Shown: positions 32,880 to 44,880 of the stretch, one piece after another
Layout: every line of letters starts with the position of its first letter
How positions within the stretch are numbered: the first letter of the stretch is position 1
Source of the DNA: Actinomucor elegans
Lineage: Eukaryota > Mucoromycota > Mucoromycetes > Mucorales > Mucoraceae
DNA length: 64,000 nt
Reading direction: 5' to 3'
NCBI GenBank assembly: GCA_026027325.1
Contig: JAMSLZ010000017.1
Span: 186,001 to 250,000, forward strand
The notes under the pieces: generated by a model
Seen by the model: the letters and a program-made list of their open reading frames with translations, nothing else
The model's database searches: none
Told to the model about the DNA's origin: nothing
Made by a program: the position numbers and the translations under genes

Positions 32880-33588
32880 TAGAGATATATGAAGGGTATG
32901 AGCAAATAAAGAAGAAAGAAAGCACCGGGGACAAGTAGCAAAAGGTGGAGTTTATTCTTGTTTAACCTCAATAATTGTGTGTGATGTAAGCTGAGATAAG
33001 AGGTAACACTTGAAGCAGCAATAACAGCAATAATAGTTTTTGGTTCTCCTCTGCCGGCTCGAACATTGGAATGATTACTATGCAGTCAAGTGTCATCTCG
33101 TTCTAGACTATCAAGGACAGTTTTATTTGTAATCTGCATCTACAGCTGTAGAAGCACCTGTAGTTATTGAGTCAGGTTACTATGGAATTTTCCAGTCTGT
33201 CTTCAACAATAACTGAGGATGAATATCTTCTTCTATAGCTGTTAGTGATTGTATTTACGTGTCGGATCACCAAGAGTACGCGAATGTTTGTTAGTTACAC
33301 CAAGGGCGGAAGCAATGTTCATCTGTTTGCAACTTGTTCTTGCAGGAAACCCTTATTTTAGATTATATTCAAAACTTTTATTCTAGTCCCAGCTCTAAAG
33401 TTGGAAGTATCTTTTCATGACATAAAGAAACATCGATTTCCGCTTACTATTTGAAAGCATACAAGTCGATATCCGTCAAGTTTGCATAAAACAAAACAGA
33501 TCAGCTTAGTATGTCGCTCTAAGAGAAGGAGTTTAATTTGCACATTTGGTTGGCAGACGGTGATCGAAAAATTGAAAACAACAACAAC
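32880..33588. other. Intergenic region
   Basis: About 710 bases upstream of the RasGEF gene, probably including its promoter. A 63-codon minus-strand ORF at 33415-33606 shows no recognisable motif. Nothing else is supported. Confidence 0.45.
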
Positions 33589-34268
33589 CGCTATGGGAAA
33601 AATCATCTTGTTTCATTCAATATCATTGCATCCCATGCAATTTTTTGCTTCTCCATGAATTTCATAGAATTTCATCGAATTTAATTTAGAAATGAAACTC
33701 GTGTGGTTAAATTTATTCAAGAATTTCCTATGAATCTCAACCTAACTGGATGATGCAATTTCAATAGATTAAATATATCAGTGGAAAATATTAAATTGTT
33801 CAATTTCATCAATATTTATTTTTGCATAGTTTTCATGATAAAATGAAATTTGCATTAAGTTCAATTGTTTTCATAGATTTTTTATAATTTAACTCCTATA
33901 AGAATAATTCTAATCGCGTTCAGTGCTTTGATCTCAAGAGCTAATATACGACATATACAAGCCAACTGATTGATTTTTTTTTTTTTTTTTTTTACAATAT
34001 GGCCATCAGAGTAGTAGCTATGGAATTATATTTTGAATGCATACGTACATTCACATCATATATCATATATCATATATCAACAAAAATACTGTAGTATTAC
34101 ACTCTATATAATGCAACATGAGAATTTAGTATTATTACATCACATCGATTAATTAACGAAACTCAATAGAACTCTATAATTTTTATTGATGAATGGATGG
34201 AGTGGATGAAATTCGCAAACTTTTCATCCATCAAACAAGCTCAACAAAACATATTTTTCCCCATAGTG
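33589..34268. mobile_element. Small non-autonomous CACTA-like element (680 bp)
   Basis: The left end reads CGCTATGGGAAAAAT (33589) and the right end, on the other strand, reads CACTATGGGGAAAAAT (ending 34268), close to the 14-bp ends of the large CACTA element at 37548-42786. Just inside the left end are repeated GAATTTCAT units (about 33657-33680), like the subterminal repeats of such elements. There is no coding capacity. Flanking triplets are AAC and ACA, so no clean 3-bp target duplication remains. It is probably a decayed deletion derivative of a related but not identical family. Confidence 0.6.
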
Positions 34269-36614: not shown

Positions 36615-37547
36615 TTGAAAAAAAAAAGACTCATTTCCAATAAACCAGTTCGATATTATACTTCAATATATTTGGGCGTGGAAATACTACAAATTCACAT
36701 TTCTTTTGACTGACCTATTTTAATACACAACTAACAGTATAATTATAGTCATATGTAACAACAGATGCTGTAGCTCATTCTGAGCATGGATTATTAACCA
36801 GATGAAAACTTATGCCAAGATCTGCCGGGAAGACCTATAGATTATTAAATCTGAAAGACATATATTTTACTGACAACTATTAACATCATTATTTTTTAGT
36901 TGAATAAAAAATCTAATATAAACAGCAGTTTATTCTGAACATGATTTAGTAATTAGTTACGATATTAAACTCGGACAGGTTAAAGATCTACAGTTCAGTA
37001 ATATTGAGGCTCTATGAATTGTATGTAATATAATTGTTTGTAAATATTGAATAGCGTATTCGCTATAATTAAGTTAAATAATGGCTTTATTAGGTACAGT
37101 GATTTATTCTTAACATGAACTTGCTCACTGAATGCTACATCTGTTCAATTTTTTAGGCAGGGCAATTTAATTTTTTTTATTTTTTATTTTTATCGTTGGA
37201 CAGCTGAAATTTCGTCACCTAAAAATACCATAATGACTAGAAAAAAAATAACAAATACATATTGGAGGTATAAGCTATCAATATATGTCATAGAGCTGTT
37301 AGTTTTCTTTCAATTGATATACATTATGCAAGATACATAATGAAAGTAACTATCAAACTGTAAACTGGAAAAAAGATATACTAGCGGAGTTTTATAGCAT
37401 TTAATACAATCAAGTGGCAACTATTTAACATATTGCACAAAAAGAAGCGTAAGATATTCTATAACTTTGTGAAGTTTCAAAGCGGGTCCCCAGTGAATAT
37501 TCCCAAGTTGTTTTGTCAATAGACCAGAGAAGAACAATAATAATAAT
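36615..37547. other. Intergenic region with degraded repeat motif
   Basis: About 930 bases between the F-box gene and the CACTA element. A motif like GCTCATTCTGAGCATG occurs at 36774, as TTTATTCTGAACATG near 36933 and as TTTATTCTTAACATG near 37105, roughly 160-170 bases apart, suggesting a decayed tandem or dispersed repeat. No gene was recognised. Confidence 0.5.
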
Positions 37548-37561
37548 CACTATGGGAAAAA
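37548..37561 (+). repeat. Left terminal inverted repeat of the CACTA element
   Basis: CACTATGGGAAAAA, preceded by the AAT target duplication. Pairs perfectly with 42773-42786. Confidence 0.93.
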
Positions 37562-37857
37562 AAAAGTGAAATAAAGTGAATTCATGGCAAAATCAAGTGA
37601 ATTTCAAGTGAATTAGTGCTTTCACCTGAATTTAAAGTGAAATAAAGTGAATTTCATGGCAACTTGGAAACCAGGTTAATGCACCTTAACTTTTATTTCC
37701 ATTATTTTTCCATGAATTTCCATGTTTCCCAATTGGAGTGAATATGGAGCTAGTTCGAGTAAATTGTATGTTAAACTAAACAGTGAAGCAGAGCTCTGGT
37801 TTCAACGAATATAAGACAGCATTGATAGTATAGAATAAATTTATATATGTACTTGGT

Positions 37858-40800
37858 TTAATAAGGTCTCCAAGCAACATATGTTTTGTCTTTATTTAAT
37901 AAAGAAGGTATAAGTATAGCATATCCTATTATGTCCTTGGCTTTGATTATTTTCCATAGGAGCCTTTCTTCATAGGGTTGCGTATAATAGCAGCATGTTT
38001 GACCATCAAACACTAAAGTCGTTTGATGTTGTAATAAGGCAAGTATTTGATCTTTCCATCTAATAAACTGCTTTACTTGGCCTATATTATATTGTAAGGA
38101 CATAGTATCATCTGATATGTATGCAACTATCTTTTGGTTTTGTTTTCTTGAAGAAATATCAACGGTTTGGCCATTCCTCGTTTTACCGTAAGTATTAGAA
38201 GTAGAAACAGAGTACTCCTCTTCTGTTGAACTGGAACCATTATGATCGGCTAGATATTGCTGGATTAGATGCTTAATATCACACGTTGGAAATAATTGGT
38301 TGATTAAGTCAGCAGAAGAAGGTTTAAATACCATATCTTCATCAACACTATGGCTTTCAATTCCAATCTGCCAGTTTTTATACGCTTTTGTGTAGTGATC
38401 CATTAGAACAGTGACAGAGTTTTTTTGAGGATTTTGTTTAGACTTGATATGTCTTTTTACATCTTGAATACTTCTTTCAAGAGTTCGGGCGCTTATCAAT
38501 CTAAGTGGACCAAGCTGAAAAATAATATAGGACAAATGTTTTAGATAATGCTGGTTAATGGTAAATGTATCTTTTCCCATCTTCTGCAGTAAGAACGCAT
38601 GCCATCTTTTTACTAATCTAGAATGAAAAGACGATATAAATTATCGAAAACTTAGCATAGCTGCACGTAGTAGTCTCTCAAAAAAAAAACTTACTCATCA
38701 ATCCGTAACAGATCACTTGGATATATGTTGAATTTTTGGGTCAAAGTGCAGACCATGGATATTGATTTCAAAGCATTGCACGCATCATCAACAGCTTCCA
38801 GTACAGGAGAAGCTACCTTTCTCTTCTTTTTTCTATTTCTTTCGGTTTGGTAAATATCAGCATGTTGTTTTCGTAACGCCTCCACTACCAAAGTGGGTAC
38901 TATGTACATTAAAAAATCAATCCAGTCAACGCTACGAGATTGGCCTGATTTGGAAGAAATATCTAAGTGAAGAAAAAAGCAAGGATATTAATTCATTGGA
39001 ATAATTAGCATTAAGTTTCTTGAGTTAATCTCTAATACCTATAAATTGACCATCAATGGCTCCATTTGGAAGCATTCGTTGTATTTGAACCATTGCTCTG
39101 CCAATTTCTTCTCTATAGGCGTTCCGAAGGAACAAAGGGTTATAGTATCCGAATCTCTGAGAGTCATCCTTCATCATGGACCATATGTGCTTGGCTATAT
39201 TCATTCCCCATAAGTGCATCTCATCTAATCCAAAAAATGAACATCCATGAAAGCTTTTTAATAATGCAAATGGCAATTTCCCTTTGAGTGAAGTAGCCTA
39301 GATAGTTAATCAAATCATACTGCATTAGACACTGATACAGTTACTATTGTTTAATTTATTAAGCTTCTTACCAAGTCACCGTTTTGATAATCCTCAGAAG
39401 TCCTTAATGGGTATTCAATGGGCTCTTGTGCTTCATTTGTTCCAGGAAAAACTATAGTCCTTTTTGATTTGGAATAAATGCCTTTGATCTTGCAAATGCG
39501 GCATCCATGGTAAGAATTATGGCCAGCATGTAAACATAGCTCTGATAGTCCAGGAATATCACCAATTATGTTTAATAAGTGGGCCTTTATACGGATGGAA
39601 GAGGTTCCTGTTTCGACAATAATGCCTTCTGTTTCCAAAACGAGAAGCTCCTGGATGGTAGGATAAAGGAAACTAAAGATATCATAGGGTTTTCTCGGAC
39701 CAGGTATGACGGCAACGATCAGTCTGTTTTCTGGATCAAATCTATAATAGAGCATTTAATTTATCCATTAAAGTTTCAGCGCCAAGTTATTTTGTTTTGT
39801 ACCTTTGTTCTGGTGGTATATCATTAATAGTAAACATGATAATTGCCATACTATTATCACCTGTGTCAAAAGGATGGAATCCATCGTAATGGAACGAGAG
39901 CGAGAGGTTATAGTCTTCTTCGGCGTCACTATTTCTACTTTTAAAAGCGAATCCATCCAATATATCTCTCTCGCAGCCATCAAGCTCATCGGTTGAACTA
40001 TACACAGAGCTACGCGTAGCTTTATATTTCAACTTCTTCCTATTCTTTTCAGACAGCATAAAATAGGCCAACTGCTTACTAAGTGATAGTTGGTAATGCT
40101 TGGCTTTAGCTTCCATGATAGTTGATGTGGACGATGTCTCTTCATAACGATGTCTCTTGCAACTTAACCTAGGGCAAGCAGTTTGACTGTCACCAGGGTA
40201 ATACATGTAGCACCCTTCAGGACACATGTCATATTTATCAGCTTGAAGTTGGATTATATGATTATTATTAATGCTTTCGCATTTATACGGGCTGATGAAT
40301 TTTAGATGTTCTATAAAAGAAAATAAGAATAGCAGTGAGCACACTGGTAGTAGTAAAGCAGCAAGATGGAAATAATAACTATACCACTATTCATCTCAAT
40401 TAAGTACTCATTGAAGAAGTTGAATATTTTTTCGGTCGTACTTTTTGATACATTGTTTTCTTTTAAGAGATACTTCAGTTCTAGACTTTTCCTCTCTGGA
40501 GGACTTAAAATATCCATGTACTGTTTACCATCGTCCTTGATTTTAAGCTGAATAGGATGGGTAATAGTATCTTTGAATTTGCTTAATCTAGAGTATATTT
40601 CTTCCACTGTGGTTTTTTTTATTGCGTCTTCTTCTATAGCGCCAACTGTTCGCCAACCTTCTTGTATTACCTTAGTTTTTTCTGAATTTTCTTCTTCATT
40701 CGCTATAGAGTCGCATTCATCCAAGCTGTTCATATCTACAGAGTTACTGAAATCACAGTGGCTTGTTCGTAAAATATCAGCAGGATTGTTATTTACAATA

Positions 40801-41012
40801 TCAGTGCTTGATTGATGTTGCGTTTCATGGTTTAAAAGATCATCTGATACATAAGGGTTACTGGCGAAATGACCTTGCTGAGATAGTGTAAGTTTCTGCT
40901 TTACTTGACTATATATATTGAAAGCACGTCGCATTCTGCAATTGATAATATGCCTTCTTATTTCTTTTTTAGTAAAGTACTGTTGACACACTGGGCAGTT
41001 TTCACCAGGCAT
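37858..41012 (-). CDS. Tnp2-type (CACTA) transposase
   Basis: Catalyses cut-and-paste transposition by binding and cleaving element ends. Six exons: 41012-40385, 40310-39803, 39741-39372, 39297-39039, 38962-38695 and 38617-37858; five GT-AG introns keep one frame to give 930 residues. A zinc-binding motif C6-C9-H21-C25 (CPVCQQYF) opens the protein. The Tnp2 core has SFHYDGFHPFDTG (about 350), IPPEQRYK joined to FDPENRLIVAVIPGPRKP, GDIPGLSELCLHAGHNSYHG with CRICKIKG (about 440), and FGLDEMHLWGMNIAKHIWSM (about 530), the D/D/E-type landmarks of the family. An upstream Met at 41084 could extend the N-terminus by 24 residues. No internal stop or frameshift was found. No similar gene lies in the rest of the window. 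Confidence 0.9.
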
Positions 41013-41625
41013 TATTCTTGTTGAAATAGGCGAAAGAGTAAAATAAAGGTAAAAGCGTTGGGACTCTGCACGTATTATATGCACAGTTTTAGAGATGCGG
41101 TAAAAATTGAATAAAAAGCGAATAAATGAATTAAAACCGTTTTATGAGGTTTTATTGATCTAAAGTAAGTTTAGCTATCCTATCTAGCACGTATGTCTTG
41201 TATTTAGATTTCAAAGAAAATAGTCTCTTGGTAACAATCAAAGGTCTTTTTTAATATATGTTCACTCTGCATTAATTGTCCTTTCAGCGGTGATCCAAAC
41301 TTCCCTCTTTAGATGGATGGTTAGATGAAACCCATTCCTTAATATATATATGCAGAGTGCCATATGTGCGTTTCACCACAAGAGAGATATCAATATTCGA
41401 GCAAGGTTTGTTTATTACGCATAATTACGTTACATTAGCTCTAATAGGTTCTGATTTTTTGTATATGATACCTAGCACTTCCTGGTAAGATTCTCCCGAC
41501 ACAGGCTATACCTATTAAGTTAAAGCCATTTTTAACTGCAGGGCTTATGATATAAAGATGGTTCCACTACATGCATTTCTTTTGCACTCATTTCTTTCCA
41601 TAAATTTTATAAAATCATTAGAATC
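41013..41625. promoter_or_regulatory. Divergent promoter region inside the CACTA element
   Basis: This 613-bp non-coding stretch separates the start codons of the transposase (minus) and the companion gene (plus). It should contain both promoters. No defined regulatory motif was recognised. Confidence 0.5.
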
Positions 41626-42299
41626 ATGCCAGCTAACAGAAGACAAATTAGACAGACCAGCCAATCCAGTCAATCCAGCAGCAGAGAAAACGACAGAGAT
41701 CTTAACAGTCAAATAAATCTACCTCCACCTTGGATGGAAGATTTTAAACAAGATCTCGTAAACTATTTCGATGAAAAGCTTCAACCCTCTTTAAACATAG
41801 GAAGCTCAAAAACTATCCCAGTGCCAAAGAAGCAAAGGAGAGTAAATTCTAAAGTCTATATCCAATGCTTTTTAAAAGAACACCTAAAGGAGCCAGTGCC
41901 TAATGATGAAGATATCAGCAGCCTGATGGGAATACTTGATCAAGAAGCTTTCTCTTCAGTACTAACTTTTGCGCAGCAGAACCCAGAAGCTGCATGTAAA
42001 AGCTGGAGGCTGCTTTCTTCTCTTAATAAGCTCTCCATGATACAGTCGGCACTACAACAGTCGATAGCATCAGATGAACGGCTTGCTATCATCAACAAGT
42101 GTGTAAGATTTTGGCCTTGCGAGTTTCTTGTGCAAGAAAAATGGACTAACAGAAGCAAATATAACAGGAAGAAAGTGTAAGTGTACATTCTATAACTATT
42201 GCATATTGAATCAAAAGGAGAGAAAAATGAACACCCATTTGTAGGCTTCAAGCGGAAGGTGCGCAGTTAAGAAATGCAAGAAATCAAGGACTGCAGTAA
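41626..42299 (+). CDS. Companion protein of the CACTA element (unknown function)
   Basis: Exons 41626-42176 and 42245-42299 give 201 residues (intron GTAAGT...TTGTAG). The N-terminus is Gln/Ser/Arg-rich (residues 1-30), followed by LPPPWMEDFKQDLVNYFDEK, a basic patch (PKKQRRVNSK) and a helical region with LKEHLKEPVPNDEDI and KSWRLLSSLN. No known domain was recognised. The ORF lies wholly inside the terminal repeats and is divergent from the transposase, so it is very likely element-encoded. By analogy with En/Spm, whose second protein TnpA binds subterminal repeats, it may bind the 39-bp repeats near its 3' end; that is inference only. If the intron is not removed, the protein stops a few bases later at 42180 with a shorter tail. 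Confidence 0.7.
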
Positions 42300-42458
42300 T
42301 ATATCAGTAAATATAATTAGCTTAATATTATATACCCATTTTGTATCGTTTATCTTATTGAATAAAGAGTCATCATTACACATATGTTGTTTCATTATCT
42401 ATACATGGTTAATACATGCAAAAAAGGTTGAAATATAAGTGGTTGAAATCATAGGAAG

Positions 42459-42692
42459 GTTAACATGCTTTTCGAGTGAATTGCAAGTGAATTGCAAGTT
42501 AACATGTTTTTCGAGTGAATTGCAAGTGAATTGCAAGTTAACATGTTTTTCGAGTGAATTGCAAGTGAATTGCAAGTTAACATGTTTTTCGAGTGAATTG
42601 CAAGTGAATTGCGAGTTAACATGTTTTTCGAGTTAATTTAAGGTGAATTTCGGGTTAACCTGATTTTCAAGTGAATTGCAGGTGAATTGCAA
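42459..42692 (+). repeat. 39-bp subterminal tandem repeat, six units
   Basis: Six head-to-tail units of 39 bp start at 42459, 42498, 42537, 42576, 42615 and 42654. Each begins GTTAACATG and contains GAGTGAATTGCAAGTGAATT. The first four are nearly identical, and the last two diverge. The array sits about 80 bp inside the right end of the element, where such elements carry transposase-binding repeats. Confidence 0.95.
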
Positions 42693-42772
42693 GTTAACTT
42701 GAATTCACTCGAAACGGCAACGATTCTCCTGCAAACCGAGTTAACTTGAAATTCACTCGAAATTCACTCGAA

Positions 42773-42786
42773 TTTTTCCCATAGTG
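42773..42786 (-). repeat. Right terminal inverted repeat of the CACTA element
   Basis: TTTTTCCCATAGTG on the plus strand, followed by the AAT target duplication. Pairs perfectly with 37548-37561. Confidence 0.93.
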
Positions 42787-42949
42787 AATTCACATTATTT
42801 ATTTTCCGCACCCAATCATGCTCCTTCATAATCGAAAATGTTCAGTGAGCCAATCATTTTCGAACAATTCATCACTGCTGCAAAACTGCACATATTTCGA
42901 GCTGTTCGTTCTACTACCTATATCTTTTGCTTCTTGAGCGCTATACATA

Positions 42950-43826
42950 ATGAAATTGTCTTTATTGCTTGCAAATCTTGCTTTTATCCCTACATTATTT
43001 GCTGCATCCAATGTACCTGAAGTAGAGGATGGTAATTACTAGAGTGAATTGAATGTTTCTCGGCATTGTTTTTAAATGAAATCGTTAGGTTTCGAGCAAG
43101 TAACCTGTGGAAGCGCTATCAAGCTTACAAGCAAAGCAAATGGATATAAGCTACATTCGCATGGAGTCACTTATGGTATAGTATTCAATAAACATCAATA
43201 TATATCACGTTATTGATAGCGAAATAAGGCAGTGGATCAGGTCAACAGTCAGTCACTGGGTTCCCTAACGCAGATGACAGTAATAGTTTCTGGATCGTAG
43301 AAGCAGCTTCTGGAAAGCTTTGTAAGAGAGGGTAAACAAAACAAAAACAAAAACCATCTAAATGACATCAAAAAAAAAAAAAATTGACATAATTCAATTA
43401 GTGAGCCGGTACCTTGTGGATCATCCGTGCGTTTACGACACGCCAATACGCATGGTTATCTTCATAGTCACCTTCATCAATCACCTCTTTCAAGACAACA
43501 GGAAGTAAGCTGTTATGACGGTAGAGATTCAGGCGATAACTGGAAGGTGGAATGCTTAAATACCAACGACAAAATATGGTTACGCGAGAGCACAGTTCAA
43601 TTTGTGCACGAAGACACCAATGCCTATTTGAGTAGCTTTGCCAATCATCAATTCGGTCAGCCTATTCCCGGACAATTGGAAGTGGCCGCCTCTAAGTATG
43701 CTTCAAAAAATTCGCAGTGGATGGCACAGGTAATATTCAAATCAGACTTACTATACTCTCAAACTAATACTGATTGTCTAAAAAATGATACAGGAAGGTG
43801 TTTATTTTGCTTCATCTTCAAAATAA
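42950..43826 (+). CDS. SDF2-like ER-luminal MIR domain protein
   Basis: SDF2 proteins are ER luminal partners of the Hsp40/BiP system and share MIR repeats with protein O-mannosyltransferases. Exons 42950-43031, 43089-43175, 43229-43331, 43402-43729 and 43794-43826 give 210 residues. A signal peptide is evident (MKLSLLLANLAFIPTLFAAS). The MIR repeats follow: VTCGSAIKL, KLHSHGVTYGSGSGQQSVTG, PCGSSVRLRHANTHGYLHSH, SRQQEVSCYDGRDSGDNWKV, and HQFGQPIPGQLEVAASKYAS near the end. The protein stops at FASSSK with no HDEL-like signal visible. The CACTA insertion ends 163 bp upstream of the start codon. It converges with the mL44 gene, 46 bp away. Confidence 0.92.
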
Positions 43827-43872
43827 TAAAAGATCTAGAGATAAAAAAAAAGAACAAAGGAAAGGAATTTGC

Positions 43873-44880
43873 TTAGACGATAGCTTGAGTATTGCCCAAA
43901 GGAGCAGCAACATATTTGTCTACATTTTCAGCATCAGAGGGCAATGTAAAGTCCTTCTTTTCTTGACCGTAGTAGCTTATTAAAGCGTCTTGACAGGCCT
44001 ATATGGATTCATTAGTTTATACTATATAGGCACTTGATTTGAGTTACTTACTCTGAATTCAGCCATCTTGAGAGAACTACCAAATCCTTCACCCAACTTA
44101 TTTTGTCCAGAAAAGACACCAACTACAAATACAGGAGCTGAAGAAGCACGACCTGTTTCTGAAATCAAACGGGATTGAGCAGGTTCTTTATGCAATTGCT
44201 TCAACAAGGCTGTCAAATGACGCTTAGGTTCCTGTACTTTGATAATAGGTCGAATATCAAAATCGCGACTCAACACGAAATCGTGAATGAACTTTTTGGC
44301 TGCTTCTTGTCCTTGTTCTTGGTAAATGGCACCAATCAAGGCATTCATACAGTCAGCCATCACTGTGCTATAACCCAACTTGACACTCTCGTCCTCAGGT
44401 GCTTTCCATGTCACAGTATGTTGTAAACCAACTTCGGTAGCGATTTTAGTGAAAGACTTGTTGCCGATGAAAGCTCTTAGGGCAGTGTTGAAGGCTCCAG
44501 GGTGAAGAGAAGGATATTTACAATGAACGTATTCGGTGGCGAATAAACCAACAACACGCTTGCCAATAAATTCTAAGGTGGCGTTATTGTTTGAATCTTG
44601 AACAGACTTGTGAGTGAGTGCTTGCTTTAAAATGTTCGAGTCCAAGGATTGAAGTCCAAGACGGGCTCCAAGAGCATGAATAGGTGCTCTATCGTCTGAT
44701 TCAGTTTGGTGTATGGGTTGAGTGTGAAGTAATGCTGAAGCAAAGCGAGGTGCTATGTATAGAAAAAGTAATTAATTAGTTGGTTTGTCCGAGATTCTTT
44801 TACGAATTACTCGTACCTGACTTGGTAGCAGCAAGGAACTTGGTTGAAAGCGTCTGTGACTTGGTAAAGATATTCAACAT
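43873..44880 (-). CDS. MRPL3: Mitochondrial large ribosomal subunit protein mL44 (MRPL3)
   Basis: A structural protein of the mitochondrial large ribosomal subunit with a degenerate RNase III fold and a double-stranded RNA-binding domain. Exons 44880-44817, 44752-44052 and 43998-43873 give 296 residues. The N-terminus is basic/hydroxylated (MLNIFTKSQTLSTKFLAATK), as a mitochondrial presequence should be. The RNase III-like helix reads NATLEFIGKRVVG, where active RNase III enzymes have an E-x-L-G-D motif; here GD is GK, so cleavage activity is not expected, as in other mL44 proteins. The dsRBD-like part has HLTALLKQLHKEP, APVFVVGVFSG and KLGEGFGSSLKMAEFRAC. The gene is divergent from WASP. Confidence 0.9.

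Follow-up and report, generated by a model that had tools for sequence, protein, structure and literature searches.

In the fungus Actinomucor elegans, insertions of a CACTA/EnSpm transposon lie at a fixed distance, usually 31 bp, from a CCAAT-type sequence motif, and rows of 3-bp units begin at the same base at motif sites where no element is present. These observations are best described by a model, to which a probability of roughly 0.7 is assigned, in which an autonomous CACTA element in a recent burst inserts at a place measured from the motif and keeps both copies of the duplicated triplet upon excision, thereby building up rows. We also lean towards a broader statement, namely that the motif from which the transposon measures is a host promoter motif, that the duplications kept on excision form a time-ordered row in which visits are counted, and that some triplet repeats were written by transposition and not by slippage. 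If true, (i) a eukaryotic DNA transposon that targets a promoter-like motif to the exact base would represent a rare and testable form of target choice, perhaps acting through promoter factors, (ii) rows of scars would let past transposition and excision be read off site by site within a single genome, and (iii) triplet repeats in promoters would have an origin besides polymerase slippage.

Structure of the element and its copies

The element is contained in the window (the whole stretch of 64,000 nucleotides that was analysed), where its two ends are the only exact matches to CACTATGGGAAAAA. It has terminal inverted repeats (TIRs) starting with CACTA, a target-site duplication (TSD) of 3 bp, a Transposase_21 domain and subterminal repeats at both ends, as is characteristic of CACTA/EnSpm (Table 1). 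A sequence-only reading of the same stretch had listed perfect 14-bp TIRs, a perfect AAT duplication, a lesion-free six-exon transposase of the Tnp2 type and a second gene; all are in place, with the refinement that the left AAT belongs to a row of four such triplets, which may be read as scars of insertion and excision.

Table 1. Features of the element and its surroundings, in positions of the window
Feature	Position	Strand	Remarks
CACTA/EnSpm element	37548..42786		5,239 bp; no difference from majority base of compared copies
Left TIR	37548..37561	+	14 bp, CACTATGGGAAAAA
Right TIR	42773..42786	-	14 bp, CACTATGGGAAAAA
TSD AAT, left copy	37545..37547
TSD AAT, right copy	42787..42789
Four tandem AAT, one of them the TSD	37536..37547		side away from motif
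Target motif in register, 9/15 positions	42797..42817	-	CGG in place
Left subterminal AAGTGAATT repeats	37574..37656	+
Right subterminal array	42459..42698		39-bp unit x 6.2
Transposase exon 1 (predicted)	40385..41012	-	CxxC..H..C finger-like N-terminus, by eye
Transposase exon 2 (predicted)	39803..40310	-	start of Transposase_21
Transposase exon 3 (predicted)	39372..39741	-	remainder of Transposase_21 match
Transposase exon 4 (predicted)	39039..39297	-
Transposase exon 5 (predicted)	38695..38962	-
Transposase exon 6 (predicted)	37858..38617	-
Second gene	41626..42299	+	predicted exons 41626-42176 and 42245-42299, 201 aa
Older 680-bp relative	33589..34268		TIRs one mismatch from those of the element; after (AAC)4
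Target motif (2 mismatches) of 680-bp relative	33549..33588	+	four AAC units from +28

The predicted transposase reads through 930 codons without a stop, its exons being separated by five GT..AG introns of 61-77 nt, and matches Transposase_21 (tnp2, PF02992) with an E-value of 3.2e-11 (43.3 bits, against a cut-off of 28.6). By eye, candidate Ds of the DDE triad are found in HYDG (350-353) and GDIPG (from 439), in the expected order, and a candidate E in ARTLERSI (721-728); candidate C(2)C and H(3-4)H signatures, which according to the available part of PMC12730594 accompany the DDE residues in CACTA/EnSpm transposases, are CRIC (459-462) and HYLKH (701-705), again in the expected order. A protein database search returned 4,987 word-sharing candidates and none at E <= 0.001. 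When the transposase was searched against its own genome, only the present family was seen among the matches listed (the best 49 of 354 candidates scored), a search by which diverged transposase lineages may be missed. The second gene is a candidate for the second, end-binding (TnpA-like) protein of CACTA/EnSpm elements and is predicted to encode 201 aa if a 68-nt intron is removed and 184 aa if left unspliced. Its product has no Pfam match, its structure model is poor (mean pLDDT 44.4), and its two database relatives are 97% identical over 92% of the query and 81% over 67%.

All counts given here come from one genome, of 36.5 Mb in 27 contigs. The 14-bp TIR sequence matches at 64 places on one strand and 63 on the other, compared to 1 on each for a reversed control, and a 37-base left-end pattern and a 46-base right-end pattern are found at 60 and 57 places, respectively, all of them at zero mismatches where three were permitted. 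Forty regions were fetched; in 37 of them the two TIRs are separated by more than 5 kb, and the comparison covers 36 of these (L029 was left out, as were several lone TIR matches and C6:67508). Relative to the majority base there are no substitutions in 31 of the 36 copies, one in each of three copies, 16 in L013 and 20 in L038, and 20 of the 31 substitution-free copies also lack indels. The small indels, mostly of 1 bp, may be assembly errors; larger differences include a shortening of the right subterminal array by 39 bp in each of L013, L041 and L044.

More diverged relatives exist as well: L025 is a 3-kb deletion derivative with ~88-91% identity, L001 and L006 are short stretches with 81-83%, and the left-end pattern of the 680-bp relative in the window has one match genome-wide, itself. 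The present copies form a very recent burst atop an older population. The sequence-only reading had called the element young, apparently intact and possibly autonomous and had proposed looking for paired copies elsewhere; the abundance of identical ends, the scarcity of substitutions, the mostly perfect TSDs (see below) and the older relatives all bear this out. Its young, intact and possibly autonomous CACTA element stands, and the target-site rule and the rows of triplets described below formed no part of it.

A CCAAT-type motif at a fixed spacing

The motif beside the insertions, ATTGGNNNNCGGNGATTNAAA, is of the CCAAT type, has 15 scored positions and lies outside the element. It was first derived from the flanks of the same insertions, 58 copies being aligned. 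When every readable flank is scored (including L029 on both sides and the misread left flank of L059), at least 10/15 positions agree at exactly 31 bp from the junction in 22/57 left flanks and 24/56 right flanks, compared to 0-3 flanks at each remaining offset between 27 and 35. In a second analysis of 53 usable sites, which omits L029, L025, L036, L037 and L059, the motif is present with at least 9/15 on one side at 30-34 bp in 50 sites, a count that is somewhat inflated by the choice among five offsets and two sides (the better side was taken and ties were assigned to 31), whereas the per-offset counts are free of that choice. The spacing is 31 bp in 42 of these 50 sites, 30 bp in three, 32 bp in two, 33 bp in one and 34 bp in two, one of the last being L044, which has a 3-bp palindrome at its junction. 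Since the motif lies to the left in 22 and to the right in 28 sites, the orientation of the element is immaterial. The window element occupies a weak motif match, and the CCAAT box there (42812-42816) is one base closer than usual.

The TSD sequence is arbitrary across copies, and a perfect 3-bp duplication is present in 47/53 usable sites; by eye, the imperfect cases are two 4-bp duplications (L061 GTTA, L069 ATGT), three with an extra palindromic triplet and one (L015) with none. In the constant spacing between motif and insertion, the element behaves like a sequence-guided integrator.

The motif is a host feature that does not depend on the element, being found also far beyond the flanks from which it was derived, with 13 exact occurrences genome-wide and 213 at no more than one mismatch, versus 0 for the reversed pattern. 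For the short form ATTGGNNNNCGG there are 1,631 matches, versus 345 for its reverse. The reverse complement of ATTGGNNNNCGGNGATTNAAA contains CCAAT, and the CCAAT-binding complex is for this reason presumably a candidate reader of the motif. At element-free sites (n=19, ~1.2 kb read), the coding signal indicates a preference, on the CCAAT side, for genes that are oriented like CCAAT (Wilcoxon p 0.0017). At occupied sites (n=33, 300-bp flanks) this signal is absent on the CCAAT side (p 0.87), and on the insertion side there is a weak signal for genes pointing inward (p 0.044). ORF length and a first coding score gave no gene direction, and the signal of the revised score is modest. An ATG at 42950, located 138 bp beyond the CCAAT box at 42812 of the window, is probably the start of the MIR-domain gene detected at 43388-43876. 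On this modest coding-strand signal, the motif is likely to be a promoter element.

A few loci are arranged in unusual ways. At G000:C13:13640-23892 two inverted copies (L036 and L037) are joined so that their left ends face out, and an exact right TIR is lacking; this stretch of 10,253 bp has ATA/ATA flanks and a motif score of 13 at 31 bp, and seems to have moved as a single unit with two left ends. By its end matches, C23:3032067-3042270 resembles it. At G000:C26:15354-43602 (L085 and L086) left and right ends are 28 kb apart with TAC/TAC flanks and, by eye, no motif; the locus may represent one insertion nested within another or else a composite element of very large size. The bases nearest to L029 (G000:C12:1668494-1673694) are those of the right flank of L022 (C7) and the left flank of L023 (C9), although ungapped identity with those flanks is low (114/300 and 182/300); its duplication is mismatched, and the identical repeat may have recombined here, undergone translocation or been misassembled.

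Rows of triplets with and without the element

An additional exact copy of the TSD triplet lies on the far side, facing away from the motif, in 23/47 occupied sites, compared to 2/47 for the motif side (Fisher's test, 9e-7). No extra triplet is present at 24/47 occupied and 53/78 empty motif sites (non-homopolymer).

The empty sites were drawn from the first 100 listed of the 213 motif sites, five of which are at elements (one each at L014, L022 and L023, two at L029); 80 of the 95 element-free sites were fetched in listing order and 15 left out. Setting aside L159, which is nearly a duplicate of L155, and L097, which was read separately and has no duplication at +28, leaves a final set of 78. 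That rows should start at +28 was predicted before these sites were inspected. An exact triplet duplication starting there is present in 20/59 empty sites and in 6/20 of a later set, or in 26/78 when pooled, against a mean of 3.7 and single positions reaching 10; for non-homopolymer duplications the count is 25/78 against a background of 1.8/78, with 7 at +27. From +28 onward in steps of three (28, 31, 34 ... 49) the counts are 25, 13, 10, 12, 7, 2, 3 and 2. In the 59 empty sites, periods 3 and 6 are elevated, 9 slightly and the remaining periods little or not at all, and at control ATTGG sites of the window that lack CGG, 7/199 have a duplication at +28, the mean over offsets 20-59 being 6.05. 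Therefore, rows start at the insertion base whether or not an element is present. A candidate peak upstream, at -28, was rejected: it appeared in 11/59 sites of the first set and 1/20 of the later one, or 12/78 pooled, where background positions reach 10.

Several other readings of the rows have to be weighed, which overlap with one another and with the main one, and whose probabilities need not sum to one. The best surviving of these, although unlikely, is that the rows are microsatellites that already existed by the motif and that the element prefers repeats as its targets. Simple repeats are indeed preferred by some transposons, and extra copies at occupied sites would be expected. However, ready-made targets would hardly be so one-sided, the sites lacking an extra copy argue that a row is not required, the row units are diverse in sequence, and rows begin at the exact insertion base at element-free motif sites too. 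Slightly less credible is a host process, such as slippage or nick repair, that makes 3-bp duplications by itself, with a shared protein-DNA structure guiding the transposon to the same place. The motif is a host feature found genome-wide, and 95 of the first 100 listed sites have no known element, which speaks in its favour; yet a host process predicts neither that the unit length equals the 3-bp duplication of the element nor that the start coincides with its insertion base.

Under the main model of motif-measured insertion and triplet-keeping excision, the integration complex would recognise the composite CCAAT-type motif, directly or through host factors bound there, and would insert the element in either orientation, with a 3-bp staggered cut, after the triplet beginning 28 bp from the start of ATTGG. 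Excision would often rejoin the flanks with both triplet copies kept, and the next insertion, measured from the same motif, would duplicate the motif-nearest triplet anew and shift older copies outward, so that a one-sided row of 3-bp units would grow by repeated insertion and excision. Anchoring at the motif together with such excision would account for the one-sidedness, the sharp near edge and the ragged far edge of the rows. Part of the rows may also stem from other families that make a 3-bp duplication. The occupied and empty motif sites that lack an extra triplet, and the weak motif match of the window element, count against the model.

Some traces at the sites bear on excision. Remnants of CACTA/TAGTG ends are found at +28..+45 of empty sites in 7 cases against ~2.0 expected, which is suggestive only as a sign of excision, and a palindromic triplet occupies +28 in 3/59 empty sites, which is scarcely an enrichment. 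In L038, L044 and L075 the reverse complement of the triplet lies between the triplet and the element, forming a 3-bp palindrome; cleavage of the flank through a hairpin, followed by rejoining, would leave such junctions, and palindromic footprints are tied to hairpins for Ac/Ds in the accessible part of PMC4561436. A variant of the main model would have the duplications arise by abortive or partial integration and gap repair, with no whole element inserted or excised. The same one-sided rows would be expected, and excision itself is deduced, neither it nor an empty allele being seen in the one genome; the suggestive end remnants and the palindromic junctions nevertheless fit excision, and we know of no abortive integration with gap repair in the CACTA/EnSpm superfamily. 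This variant is about as doubtful as the host process.

If insertions are anchored at the motif, older elements are expected farther from it. The motif distances of three older relatives (34 bp in L025, 38 bp in L001 and, measured from the motif start at 33549, 40 bp in the 680-bp relative) fit older insertions pushed outward by row growth; 34 and 40 bp equal 31 plus a multiple of 3, and 38 bp does not. In L006, also an older relative, the motif is absent at the one end read. Random insertion with selection sparing only copies near promoters is highly improbable, given a base-exact spacing in a burst that is so far nearly free of substitutions.

Comparison with known systems

The present element shares its CACTA-type ends, short TSD and Transposase_21 domain with the CACTA/EnSpm (CMC) elements, including those of fungi, where the TSD of EnSpm elements is 3 bp according to the available parts of the sources (PMC12730594, PMC12810828, PMC1636069). 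It differs in its target and its traces, in that the same parts report neither a base-exact promoter motif nor triplet scars for known CACTA/EnSpm elements, and the DNA transposons studied in PMC12810828 are described there as approximately uniformly distributed. A 3-bp duplication on insertion is also made by mPing/Harbinger elements. However, in the portion of PMC4561436 that was accessible, mPing elements with matching duplications never left both triplets on excision, one being kept, and this behaviour of another element with a 3-bp TSD speaks against the main model.

In the literature searched, which covered few subscription journals, no precedent was found for motif-spaced insertion with triplet scars. 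Tn7 recognises a sequence and inserts at a constant distance from it, and in this respect the present element behaves likewise; Tn7 is bacterial, with one attachment site and a dedicated selector protein. The retrotransposons Ty3 and Tf1 integrate at a set place relative to promoters via host factors, and it is in this set place near promoters that the likeness lies. These are, however, integrase retrotransposons that do not excise and are hence unable to build rows of triplets, whereas the present element is a DNA transposon.
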